NCBI RefSeq assembly: GCF_019037185.1
Contig: NZ_JAHHXM010000028.1
Coordinates: 1 to 38,465 of the forward strand
Length of the DNA: 38,465 bases
Direction: 5' to 3'
DNA from: Oceanobacillus caeni
GTDB taxonomy: Bacteria; Bacillota; Bacilli; Bacillales; Amphibacillaceae
A program made the position numbers and the translations under genes. Under the pieces are notes generated by a model. It was not told where the DNA came from and ran no database searches. It saw only the letters and a program-made list of their open reading frames with translations. Shown here in pieces: positions 32,348 through 36,462 of this stretch; the stretch's first letter is position 1; every line of letters begins with the position of its first letter.

Positions 32348-33355
32348 ATGTTTTCAAATGCTGAAATTGGAATTGATTTAGGAACAGCTAACATCCTGAT
32401 CTATTCAAAATCAAAAGGTATCGTACTAAATGAGCCATCTGTTGTGGCAATTGACATAAATACAAAACAAGTCGTAGCCGTTGGGGCTGAGGCAAAAGAA
32501 ATGATCGGAAAAACTCCTCAAAACATCGTACCTATCCGCCCCTTAAAAGATGGCGTTATTGCGGATTATGACGTAACCGCGCAAATGTTAAAAGTTCTCT
32601 TAAAAAAGGTAAGCAAAAAAGCAGGAATTTCTACGAGGAAACCTATTGTTGTAGTCTGTACTCCATCTGGAAGTACTTCTGTGGAGAGACGCGCAATCCA
32701 CAATGCAGTCACTAGTTACGGTGCAAAGAATGTACATTTAATAGAAGAACCAGTTGCTGCAGCAATTGGTGCTGACTTACCGGTTGATGAACCTACTGCA
32801 AGTGTGGTTGTTGACATTGGTGGAGGTACAACCGAGGTTGGAATTATCTCATTCGGGGGTGTAGTTGCTTGTAATTCAGTACGTGTAGCAGGCGATCGTT
32901 TGGATGAAGAAATCATTCTTCACATTCGCAAACATTACAACATTTTAATTGGGGAACGTACTGCTGAAAGTATTAAAATGGAGATTGGCCATGCAGATTC
33001 GGATCATGAAGAAGTAAATATGGAGGTTCGTGGACGTGATATGGTTACGGGGTTACCAAAAACCATTACAATCTCATCTAAAGAAATTCACTCTGCTCTT
33101 AAAGAATCTCTAGAACAAATCCTTGATACAATCCGTGCAACATTAGAAGATTGCCCACCTGAACTAAGTGGAGACATCGTAGACCACGGTATTGTTCTAA
33201 CTGGTGGCGGAGCATTATTAAATGGAATACAAAAATGGTTGTCTACAGTAATCAATGTTCCCGTTCATATTGCACCTAGTCCACTAGAATCAGTTGCAAT
33301 TGGAACAGGTCGTTCTTTACAAATGATTACAAAATTACAAAAGGCTGCAAAATAA
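32348..33355 (+). CDS. mreBH: MreBH, actin-like cell-shape protein
   Basis: This 335-residue actin homologue forms membrane-associated filaments directing side-wall synthesis; in B. subtilis MreBH guides the autolysin LytE. It is assigned to MreBH rather than MreB or Mbl because of [42 protein letters not shown] and the ending close to IxKLQKAxK, as well as identical length and a SigI-like promoter. The phosphate-binding loops IGIDLGTAN and [10 protein letters not shown] and the adenosine motif [10 protein letters not shown] are intact. GGAGG precedes the ATG. Its monocistronic transcript ends in a strong terminator. Confidence 0.9.
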
Positions 33356-33362
33356 TCCTCTT

Positions 33363-33400
33363 CAGTTCATGTATTTTTTTAATGCATGAACTGTTTTTTT
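33363..33400 (+). terminator. terminator of mreBH
   Basis: CAGTTCATG (33363-33371) pairs with CATGAACTG (33385-33393), followed by seven T. Confidence 0.92.
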
Positions 33401-33441
33401 AATCATAATAAAAAATATTTAGAAATTAACGATAGAAATCG

Positions 33442-33470
33442 TTTACAAATGTTTTACTTTGCTTTATAAT
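33442..33470 (+). promoter_or_regulatory. strong SigA-type promoter of the orphan small RNA
   Basis: -35 TTTACA (33442-33447), an exactly 17-nt spacer, and consensus -10 TATAAT (33465-33470), in a gap with no downstream protein gene on this strand. Confidence 0.8.
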
Positions 33471-33476
33471 ACTAAT

Positions 33477-33602
33477 TAATCAACCGTGTTCATTCACGGT
33501 TAAAACCTACGAATAAGTTACTGCCTAGTCTGTTCACATTCCTTTATAGGTCTGTTCCAACAGATGTAAGCCATTTCAAAACATTTGAAATGGCCTTTTT
33601 TT
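33477..33602 (+). ncRNA. candidate small non-coding RNA, ~125 nt
   Basis: A complete small transcription unit: promoter at 33442-33470, expected start near 33477, and a strong intrinsic terminator ending near 33602. The predicted 5' hairpin is AACCGTG-(6 nt)-CACGGTT (33482-33501). TCTGTT/AACAGA and CCTA/TAGG pairings are possible in the middle. No ORF with a ribosome site fits. The next gene (lysine dehydrogenase) lies on the other strand, so this is not a leader. I do not recognise it as 6S, SRP, RNase P, tmRNA or a riboswitch. Its function is unknown. Confidence 0.65.
33570..33602 (+). terminator. terminator of the candidate small RNA
   Basis: GCCATTTCAAA (33570-33580) pairs perfectly with TTTGAAATGGC (33584-33594) over an ACA loop, followed by a C and a run of seven T. 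Confidence 0.92.
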
Positions 33603-33610
33603 ATTCCACC

Positions 33611-33638
33611 TAAATGGGCAGTAAGAAGTCTTCTTTAT
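33611..33638 (+). repeat. minimal copy of the GGGCAGTAAGACT repeat (ends fused)
   Basis: GGGCAGTAAGA, the left end, is joined directly to AAGTCTTCTTTAT, the right end of the element at 13459-13607. The whole interior is missing. Confidence 0.5.
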
Positions 33639-33664
33639 TATATTCGAAACGAACAACATTAAAA

Positions 33665-33686
33665 AACCTGCTTCACATAGCAGGTT
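33665..33686 (-). terminator. terminator of the lysine 6-dehydrogenase operon
   Basis: AACCTGCT (33665-33672) pairs with AGCAGGTT (33679-33686) over a 6-nt loop. TTTTAATG follows on the minus strand. Confidence 0.85.
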
Positions 33687-33714: not shown

Positions 33715-34851
33715 TTAGCACTCTTTTATATTTACTCCACGTTTTGCCATTTCTTTTATATACAAATCCCCAGGAACTATTTGCTCTGGAGGTAGAACGC
33801 CTTTATCCTTGATCGTTCCATTTCCTATCATTTGTGCAACAACAGAAATCGTATTAGCAGTAGCGCGAGCCATTGCTGTTGTTTTCTTTTCTTTATAGGT
33901 CACCATTTCATATTGACGTTTGCAAGGTTTCCCGTCTTTTAAACCTGAGACAATAACCCGAAGTAATACAACATCGTCTTTTTCTCCTAATTCTACGATT
34001 GGATCCAGCACTTTTAAAAATACTTCTCTCGGACTTACCTTCATTCCGTTGATATCTACTTTAAAGCCTTTACGCGTTAAATTTAAATCAATCAAAAACT
34101 TAAATTTTTCTGCATGGCCTGGGTAGCGTATGGTTTTATATTCTAATTCCTCTAGGTTAGGAAATGAAATCGACAGAGTAGATGTCCCCCCCGAAGTATG
34201 AAAGGCTTCTAAAGGTCCAAATTTTTCAAAATGAATTTCCTCTACTTCAGATAAGGAAGGAATCTCTTGTTTCACGCCATTTCGTATAATAAAGGATGGG
34301 TCTGTATAATGATCAAAAACGCCTTCCATGGAAAATACATGATTATACTGAAATGGAGGCTCTGGTCTTAATGGAATTCCACCAACAAATAGTTTAATAG
34401 ACCTAACGTTATCTAGTTTACTACCCCCATAGCCAGATAAAATATTGATCATGCCAGGAGCAACACCTAGATCCGGAATGATTGTAATTTTAGCTTTTTT
34501 GGCTTCCTCAGCTAATTTTAATACTTTATCCGTTATATGACCGATGTGTCCTCCTAAATCAACAGAATTTACCCCTACTTTAATAGCCGTCTTAGCAACT
34601 GTTTCATTAAAAGTATAAAATAATGCATTAATAATCACATCAAACTGTTTCATGAAATTCTCTAATTCATTAAGATTATTCGCATCAACTTGATAGGCGG
34701 TTAGTTTAGCCGATTCAAGTTGTTCACATACCTTTTGAGCACGATCTAAATCCACGTCAGCCAAACCAACAGCTGAAACATTCGGACTCGTTACTAAATC
34801 TCTTACCACTTCTTTCCCCATTAACCCAGATCCCAATACACCAACTTTCAT
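33715..34851 (-). CDS. lysDH: L-lysine 6-dehydrogenase
   Basis: This 378-residue saccharopine-dehydrogenase-fold oxidoreductase is very similar to the Geobacillus stearothermophilus lysine 6-dehydrogenase. That enzyme deaminates the epsilon-amino group of lysine, giving alpha-aminoadipate semialdehyde (cyclising to piperideine-6-carboxylate), NADH and ammonia. The N-terminal Rossmann motif is [11 protein letters not shown]. Family blocks are [47 protein letters not shown] and [18 protein letters not shown] lies ahead of the ATG. It is encoded 117 nt behind the aldehyde dehydrogenase that can take its product. Confidence 0.9.
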
Positions 34852-34968: not shown

Positions 34969-36462
34969 TTAGTCTACGTCAATTTGGGCACGTTGTAATT
35001 TACCACTATAATCCACATAAACCGCCTTCCATTCTGTAAACACGTCCAGTGCCTGAACACCTGAATCACGATGACCATTTCCCGTTCCTTTTGTACCGCC
35101 GAATGGTAAATGAATTTCCGCTCCAGTTGTTCCTGCATTCACGTACACGATACCAGTATCTAAATCACGTTGTGCTTGAAATACACGATTTACATCTTGA
35201 GTAAAAATAGAACTTGATAGACCAAATGACACCCCGTTATTAACCTCAATCGCCTCTTCTAGACTTTGGACAGGAATTAACGAAACAACCGGACCAAAGA
35301 TTTCTTCCTGCGCTATTCTCATATCTGGTTTAGCATCTGTAAACAAAGTTGGAGCAAAGAAAAATCCACCCTCAAAACCAGAGCCGCTTAATTCATATCC
35401 ACCTTCGACTAATCTGGCACCTTCCTTTTTACCAATCTCGATATAATCTTTAATTTTATTCATACCTGCCTGATTAATGATAGGACCAACTTTTATGTTT
35501 TCATCTAAACCATTGCCAATTGTTAATTCTTTCATTTTTACTAATAACTTTTTCTCAAGCTGCTCTTTTACTGCTTCATGCACAATAACACGGCTACATG
35601 CTGTACAACGCTGCCCACTTGTTCCATAGGCGCTCCACAATATTCCCTCGACCGCTAAATCTAGGTCAGCATCATCCATAACGATTACTGCATTTTTTCC
35701 CCCCATCTCTAGTGAAACCTTTTTTAGTTGTCTACCACAATCAGCCGCAATATTTCTACCGACATCATTAGATCCTGTAAACGAAATCACTCGAATATCG
35801 TCGTGATGGACCATCGCATTTCCAACAGTCGCTCCACTACCAAAAACAACATTTATTACTCCTTTTGGTAGACCAGCTTCTTCAAAAATTTTAGCGAGTT
35901 CATAAGCCATAATTGGCGTTTCCGAAGCTGGCTTCCATACTACTGCATTTCCAGCAACAATTGCCGGGAATGATTTCCATGTTGCGATTGCAATCGGAAA
36001 ATTCCAAGGGGTAATTATCCCAACTACTCCAACTGGAACCCGCTGACTCATAGCAAACTTACTTTTTAGTTCTGCCGGGGTCGTCTGTCCAAACATCCTT
36101 CTACCTTCTCCTGCCATATAAAAGGCCATATCGATTCCTTCCTGCACTTCTCCCCTTGCCTCTTCAATTACTTTTCCGTTTTCCATCGTTAGCAGTTTAG
36201 ATAAATGTTCTTTTCTTTCTTCTAATAAATGACCAACTCGATATAAAAATTGTGCACGTTGTGGAGCTGGTACAAGTGCCCATTCTTTTTGAGCGTTCTT
36301 TGCCGCAAAAACAGCATCATTTACCGAATCTTGACCGGATAATGGAACTTGAACAATCTCTTTACCGTTCGCTGGATTAATAACAGCTACTGTTTCTTTC
36401 ACCTCCACCCATTTTCCGTTGATGTAGTTCTTTAATTTGTTCGTATCTAAAGAAACTGACAT
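34969..36462 (-). CDS. aldehyde dehydrogenase, likely alpha-aminoadipate-semialdehyde dehydrogenase
   Basis: This 497-residue NAD(P)+-dependent aldehyde dehydrogenase is full length. The catalytic C286 is in GQRCTACSR, general base E252 in LEMGGKN, the cofactor stretch FTGSNDVG near 228, and WNFP at 153. The C-terminal GTKGTGNGHRDSG block resembles enzymes acting on aminoadipate semialdehyde rather than betaine aldehyde. Position upstream of lysine 6-dehydrogenase on the same strand supports oxidation of its product to 2-aminoadipate. Substrate assignment is inferred. AAGGGG precedes the ATG. Confidence 0.85.
   Translation of the reverse strand: MSVSLDTNKLKNYINGKWVEVKETVAVINPANGKEIVQVPLSGQDSVNDAVFAAKNAQKEWALVPAPQRAQFLYRVGHLLEERKEHLSKLLTMENGKVIEEARGEVQEGIDMAFYMAGEGRRMFGQTTPAELKSKFAMSQRVPVGVVGIITPWNFPIAIATWKSFPAIVAGNAVVWKPASETPIMAYELAKIFEEAGLPKGVINVVFGSGATVGNAMVHHDDIRVISFTGSNDVGRNIAADCGRQLKKVSLEMGGKNAVIVMDDADLDLAVEGILWSAYGTSGQRCTACSRVIVHEAVKEQLEKKLLVKMKELTIGNGLDENIKVGPIINQAGMNKIKDYIEIGKKEGARLVEGGYELSGSGFEGGFFFAPTLFTDAKPDMRIAQEEIFGPVVSLIPVQSLEEAIEVNNGVSFGLSSSIFTQDVNRVFQAQRDLDTGIVYVNAGTTGAEIHLPFGGTKGTGNGHRDSGVQALDVFTEWKAVYVDYSGKLQRAQIDVD

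Follow-up and report, generated by a model that had tools for sequence, protein, structure and literature searches.

A short RNA unit behind mreBH in Oceanobacillus caeni is probably the leader of a lost glutarate-catabolism operon

Results

A predicted terminated transcription unit lies behind mreBH

In Oceanobacillus caeni (assembly GCF_019037185.1, here genome G000), mreBH is followed by a short transcription unit at positions 33442 to 33602 of contig NZ_JAHHXM010000028.1, whose 38,465 nucleotides (nt) form the window analysed here. The promoter, a predicted RNA of about 126 nt, its hairpins and its terminator (Table 1) are real sequence features and go beyond chance. An earlier note on this DNA had described a near-consensus promoter, a predicted 5′ hairpin and an 11-bp terminator with a T run, adding that mreBH has its own terminator, that the next gene lies on the opposite strand and that the unit holds no open reading frame (ORF), and each of these points was borne out. 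Four ORFs of at least 20 amino acids (25-34 amino acids) overlap 33400-33680, and none lies inside 33477-33575.

When the 359-nt gap between mreBH and the next gene was dinucleotide-shuffled 2000 times, 19 of the shuffles contained a promoter matching at least 11 of 12 positions and 2 a terminator stem of at least 10 pairs, while none contained both. Looser scans were uninformative, with 10 promoters (at least 9/12) observed for 12.7 ± 3.9 expected and 4 terminators for 2.2 ± 1.6 expected. Furthermore, the RNA at 33477-33602 has a folding energy of -34.5 kcal/mol (z -5.64), a value to which the terminator contributes part and which none of 200 shuffles equalled.

Table 1. Features of the transcription unit and its neighbours in the window
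Feature	Position	Strand	Remarks
mreBH	32348..33355	+	NCBIfam NF010540 above cut-off; usual gene upstream of the leader in the genus
mreBH intrinsic terminator	33363..33393	+	
cre-like (CcpA) site AGAAATCGTTTACA	33434..33447	+	Overlaps the -35 box; read from the sequence
Promoter TTTACA-17-TATAAT	33442..33470	+	11/12 consensus; TTTACA 33442-33447, TATAAT 33465-33470
Predicted RNA, ~126 nt	33477..33602	+	Start inferred from the -10 box
5′ hairpin AACCGUG-UUCAUU-CACGGUU	33482..33501	+	Apparently a shortened version of a longer hairpin in many relatives
Conserved core (antiterminator element)	33516..33582	+	Covariance models R1 and R2
P0 5′ strand ACUG	33520..33523	+	Partner in relatives is the CAGU in the terminator 5′ arm; pair broken in O. 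caeni, where C33521 is opposite U33574
P1 hairpin GUCUGUU...AACAGAU and inner helices	33528..33565	+	Covariation
Terminator hairpin GCCAUUUCAAA-ACA-UUUGAAAUGGC	33570..33594	+	11 pairs; T run to 33602
Saccharopine-dehydrogenase-fold gene	33715..34851	-	Pfam PF16653, PF03435; convergent neighbour, near the operon in relatives too; product presumably lysine 6-dehydrogenase
Aldehyde dehydrogenase gene	34969..36462	-	Pfam PF00171; beside the saccharopine-dehydrogenase-fold gene

In relatives the sequence leads a probable glutarate operon

A 131-nt blastn query matched 11 of 58 genomes, that of O. caeni included, all of the genus Oceanobacillus. Nine of these 11 carry the sequence in front of a CaiB-type CoA-transferase gene, as a leader whose terminator sits a short way ahead of the start codon, and mreBH lies upstream in 9 of the 11 three-kilobase (kb) genus loci (L002-L012; L-numbers denote related loci). 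In O. caeni and its sister species (genome G016), the gene after the unit is the convergent saccharopine-dehydrogenase-like gene. Across the 80 named CoA-transferase loci the element stands just upstream in 61, in 59 of them at E ≤ 0.01. The earlier note had held that the unit cannot be an mRNA leader and had classed it as an orphan small RNA gene; in relatives the first statement fails, and for the second these loci indicate a leader without its genes rather than an RNA born as a small RNA gene.

The best NCBIfam model for the CoA-transferase is succinate--glutarate CoA-transferase, below its cut-off. The acyl-CoA dehydrogenase gene that comes next is taken to encode a putative glutaryl-CoA dehydrogenase; for a homologue in L181, the NCBIfam glutaryl-CoA dehydrogenase model ranks second, below cut-off. 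The clusters in nine named loci contain, in varying sets, genes for an aldehyde dehydrogenase, a class-III aminotransferase, an amino-acid permease, an IclR regulator and a DUF3870 protein. Such a gene set fits the lysine/5-aminovalerate/glutarate route.

By eye, a site resembling AGAAATCGTTTACA, judged against what we take to be the cre consensus, is present in 7 of the 11 genus leaders, and the promoter spacer of many relatives (for example L064, L087 and L034) carries, where the O. caeni clade has the cre-like site, a stretch like ATTTTTCAGAATA, presumably close to a CodY box. In several genera the leaders have an optional, strongly conserved 5′ hairpin (AUCAUG..AAACG..CGUU..CAUGAU; L025:1445-1481, L087:4806-4841, L098:4801-4838), which is possibly a second binding site.

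The conserved core forms an alternative to the terminator

RNAalifold, run on 11 cores, predicted a helix P0 (ACUG.CU / AG.CAGU), a P1 hairpin (AUCUGUU/AACAGAU) and two short inner helices. Because P0 takes up the 5′ arm of the terminator, the P0 fold and the terminator are mutually exclusive. We counted covariation over 90 model-aligned rows, 80 of them distinct; the minus-strand matches in L018 and L115 were kept in this count (alignment A2) and excluded from a further alignment, A4. Of 18 core pairs, 12 changed on both sides, a number reached by 7 of 500 shuffles. Paired cells amounted to 93.2%, compared with 83.0% for shuffles and 27.5-35.6% for slid partners, and none of the 500 shuffles reached that value or equalled the covariation score. 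These figures overstate the certainty, since the alignment follows the model and its rows share ancestry, although the contrast is large all the same. Covariation lies mostly in P1 and the inner helices, with P0 nearly invariant (1 of 6 pairs changed on both sides). The earlier note had proposed a covariance analysis of homologous regions and had named a lack of conservation in close relatives as refuting its reading; the sequence is conserved in relatives.

The operon-linked relatives thus have the architecture of a leader-type attenuator, namely a covarying alternative helix on the terminator 5′ arm. The O. caeni copy lacks it, with its C33521-U33574 mismatch, a convergent next gene and operon orthologues that were not found. 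A pseudoknot (ACCUA/UAGGU) was also considered and rejected; it is present in the O. caeni unit and, by eye among the rows listed, lost in most relatives.

The element precedes unrelated glutarate genes

The O. caeni core scores 83.7 bits (E 5.7e-20) with model R1, built from 11 sequences of which it is one, and 65 bits (E 3.9e-12) with model R2, built from the 75 sequences of A4, which include its near-identical sister L019 and not O. caeni itself. With R1, 17 of 28 genus genomes and 21 of 397 genomes sampled from the order proved to carry the element; with R2, 37 of the 397 and 17 of 259 genomes of a class sample did.

Beyond the CoA-transferase operons, the element precedes an acyl-CoA dehydrogenase gene alone (L181) and, in L180 and L185, a gene for the GlaH glutarate hydroxylase (NF002814 above cut-off) followed by an LhgO-like oxidase, an arrangement seen by eye also in L182 and L267. 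Other copies stand before an APC permease (L038 by Pfam; L041, L043, L177, L179 and L263 by eye), a TAXI transporter subunit (L032 by NCBIfam, L033 by eye) and a gene nearest to caprolactamase, below cut-off (L162). One genome, G616, has three glutarate-type elements within 19 kb (C1:1187205, 1194486 and 1205842), among them L263, which lies before an amino-acid permease.

Transporter substrates aside, glutarate appears to be the point common to the controlled genes. As the element stands before the unrelated glutarate genes for GlaH and LhgO, it is therefore probably an ON switch of the glutarate pathway. We consider it probable that the O. caeni unit once led a glutarate-catabolism operon, since lost, as an ancestral switch antiterminated by a protein (DUF3870), and that it is now kept as an RNA. 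Its ancestry and architecture come from computational comparison, from which we infer effector, ligand and present function.

The earlier note had matched the unit to no known RNA family, and this was confirmed with Rfam 15, in which an rRNA end at 1-76 is the only family above threshold in the window and none falls at the element. The best sub-threshold match at the unit is Qrr, with 20.1 bits for a cut-off of 50, mostly in the terminator; this match (E 0.25) and those to suhB, snoRNAs and others up to E 4.2 were rejected. At the first 20 related loci no hit fell at the element, and at 20 further loci the two hits, to SAM (L239) and to Bacillaceae-1 (L259), were each hundreds of bases away from the element. 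The open-licence literature searched, which included passages of PMC4448311 and PMC4387736, did not describe the element, the caiB passages of PMC4448311 being about E. coli. None of the papers listed named a glutarate or csiD riboswitch, DUF3870 occurred in one paper, on a Bacteroides domain, and a search by title for mreBH with small RNAs returned nothing on this unit.

The orphan copy is conserved in the sister species

The operon is absent from the site behind the unit in both O. caeni and G016, and neither genome gave a match to DUF3870. The best matches to the operon enzymes in the O. caeni genome (1 for a 185-amino-acid CoA-transferase query, 12 for the dehydrogenase query) are 48% identical paralogues, and orthologues were not found there. 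Both species share the C-U mismatch in P0 and an altered terminator, GCCAUUUC...GAAAUGGC or GGAAUGGU compared with GCCAGUUC...GAACUGGC in relatives, so that the operon was probably lost before they split. Their terminators are also weaker, at -12.9 (O. caeni) and -11.1 (G016) kcal/mol versus -22.7 to -27.9 kcal/mol in seven operon-linked relatives.

With operon, regulator and antiterminator helix gone and the 5′ hairpin shortened, the O. caeni copy could be a fading relic without present function. Against this, 103 of the 106 bases at 33474-33579 are identical to G016, whereas fourfold-degenerate sites are identical at 113/160 in mreBH and 94/149 in the neighbouring dehydrogenase gene; given the 71% at fourfold sites, such identity has a binomial P of about 1e-12. 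By reading, two of the three changes fall in stems and leave the pairs as G-U. Promoter hexamers and terminator pairing are retained, in contrast to the promoter spacer, with 12/17 identical positions, and to the stretch past the terminator, which aligns poorly. The mreBH terminator is conserved as well, as expected for a working element. Given this constraint, a conserved stand-alone RNA is likelier than a dead relic, which we regard as a possible but doubtful reading. The RNA sequence is probably held by selection, so a trans role of the discrete RNA is probable, as judged from sequence comparison. Of the earlier note's small RNA, the discrete and apparently constrained terminated unit would therefore stand, and its origin as a small RNA gene would not.

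Trans-acting RNAs of this kind have precedents in Listeria, where SreA and Rli55 are leader-derived or switch-bearing RNAs acting in trans (PMC8079631); SreA shows that a terminated leader RNA can act in trans, and Rli55 bears an antiterminator-protein site. Both differ in lying beside living systems, whereas in O. caeni the operon is gone from behind its leader and the candidate regulator was not found in the genome.

DUF3870 is a candidate antiterminator protein

DUF3870 (Pfam PF12986) is present in 167 of the 397 order genomes and regularly accompanies the element: it occurs in 36 of 37 element carriers versus 131 of 360 others, and O. caeni is the sole carrier in this sample without it. 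Within the genus, 15 of 17 carriers and 4 of 11 others have it, the exceptions being O. caeni and G016, and among CoA-transferase genomes it is found in 61 of 61 with the leader versus 11 of 19 leaderless ones. The gene order DUF3870-[element]-target recurs, though DUF3870 is frequently not the controlled gene.

Furthermore, the genes of a sister DUF3870 subfamily are immediately followed by a matching attenuator, and this makes DUF3870 a candidate RNA-binding antiterminator. A same-register attenuator follows the gene at all 35 distinct DUF819/epimerase-type loci examined, which were picked among high-scoring DUF3870 matches and are no random sample. A strict regular expression had counted this sister element at 12/18 DUF819-type, 8/17 epimerase-type, 2/17 glutarate-type, 0/10 "halo" and 0/6 "sim" loci; it proved too stringent at loci in which element and DUF3870 stop codon overlap and was replaced by a looser extraction (40 nt upstream with a looser 3′ motif), which gave 33 distinct cores that were read by eye. 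The sister element is a hairpin of about 40 nt with a 1x3 internal loop and also has a leader-type attenuator architecture; 19 of 500 shuffles equalled its two-sided pairs, 2 its pair types and none its covariation score. The glutarate model R2, run on 55 loci for the sister element, made only two matches, both at E 3.3 (L125 and L127), which were ignored. A sister-element model, R3, found matches at E ≤ 0.01 in 58 of the 397 genomes, 54 of them with DUF3870 and the four without being weaker (E ≥ 2.4e-5); the adjacency of R3 matches to DUF3870 is partly by construction, since R3 was built from DUF3870 neighbours.

Sister attenuators lie between DUF3870 and DUF819 or epimerase-like genes (L140-L153, L195-L224), and also stand alone ahead of an ABC permease operon (L257-L259). 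They probably make up another regulon under this system, which may serve cell-wall peptides. In a third DUF3870 subfamily (L217, L218 and L225), a different attenuator-like stretch (...CUUAUUAAAACCAAGC or similar) follows the gene, and by eye the next gene in L217 and L218 looks like a 3-oxoacid CoA-transferase.

The predicted DUF3870 fold resembles IscU, with no HutP or other RNA-binding fold among the 50 fold matches listed, and searches with DUF3870 sequences turned up no relative of solved structure (the best E values were 0.69 and 0.59). In CoA-transferase genomes of Halobacillus and Thalassobacillus (L160, L164-L168 and L172), DUF3870 lies beside a TRAP-type gene, mostly with an LhgO-like oxidase (by eye). 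These loci have no detectable element, and they weigh against a link between protein and leader unless they hold a diverged version.

Instead, the element could act as a riboswitch with glutarate, or a closely related C5 dicarboxylate, as its direct ligand; DUF3870 would then be just a pathway gene and the O. caeni copy an orphaned riboswitch. In favour of this, riboswitches typically bring non-homologous genes together under one RNA, as is the case for the glutarate genes here; the core has structure, and its internal loops are conserved; DUF3870 can occur in leaderless genomes; and the unlinked sister copies suit a small ligand equally. However, the sister hairpin is small for an aptamer, the recurrent gene order includes a DUF3870 gene that is often not the controlled one, and among the 37 leader genomes of the order sample it is the orphan alone that misses DUF3870. 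We therefore regard direct glutarate binding as unlikely. An independent trans-acting small RNA gene that was never a leader, suggested by the unit's own promoter and terminator, convergent neighbour and lack of an ORF, is very improbable. In 9 of 11 genus genomes the homologous sequence, which mostly follows the same gene, leads an operon, and in several families the element serves as a leader.

Discussion

A protein-antiterminated switch and its orphaned leader

If the leader was antiterminated by DUF3870, as we favour, the ancestral promoter, overlapping here with a cre-like site, would make the leader, and a GCCAGUU...AACUGGC hairpin would terminate transcription by default. With glutarate present, ACUG would pair with the CAGU in the terminator 5′ arm; an asymmetric internal loop and the P1 hairpin would come next in this antiterminator, and transcription would run on into the operon. 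The small DUF3870 protein, encoded beside the leader or operon, would stabilise the antiterminator, acting like LicT, GlpP or HutP. In O. caeni and G016, P0 is mispaired and the terminator has been rebuilt as a shorter matching stem, so that the promoter should now always yield a terminated RNA of about 126 nt. BglG/LicT-type antitermination, in which a ribonucleic antiterminator (RAT) hairpin precedes the terminator, is described with GlpP and HutP in PMC7430163.

We judge evenly balanced a broader proposal, that Bacilli DUF3870 proteins form a new family of metabolite-sensing RNA-binding antiterminators, in which one hairpin code exists in branch-specific versions (CUGC-CUA-A at glutarate operons, CUGC-UUU-A at those resembling cell-wall-peptide use), each read by the proteins of that branch, and O. 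caeni has lost protein and operon and kept the leader as a free regulatory RNA.

Relation to known systems

By analogy, the element seems to behave like a LicT/GlpP/HutP attenuator or a riboswitch, a likeness that stops short of membership of either. With the former it shares a hairpin with internal loops that overlaps the terminator 5′ arm and a catabolic operon, and with LicT, whose gene order we assume, a candidate regulator gene (DUF3870) often just upstream of the target leader. It differs from BglG/LicT in that no RAT-type hairpin was recognised by eye, judged by what we take to be the RAT consensus; the core reads RCUGC(CUA/UUU)AUCU...AGAUAAAANCCAG, and the Bacilli proteins get only DUF3870 from Pfam and no PRD domain. 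Riboswitches with intrinsic terminators, such as SAM and lysine, likewise have mutually exclusive terminator and antiterminator folds and place non-homologous genes of one pathway under a shared leader, whereas our element has no Rfam riboswitch hit in the window or at the 40 related loci. ANTAR and T-box systems also attenuate transcription in Firmicutes; the paired hairpins of ANTAR, as we presume the motif to be, were not seen by eye, and no T-box hit from Rfam fell in the window or at the first 20 related loci.

The element would add to the known RNAs a switch for the catabolism of glutarate, a lysine-derived C5 dicarboxylate, that was not found in Rfam 15 or the literature searched, and it gives DUF3870, a domain of unknown function, a testable role. 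The O. caeni copy would also be a natural case of an mRNA leader turned stand-alone RNA after operon loss, with a constraint that is measurable in a sister species. At the other end of the window, positions 1-76 are an end of a 16S rRNA gene on the minus strand, inside which the contig starts.
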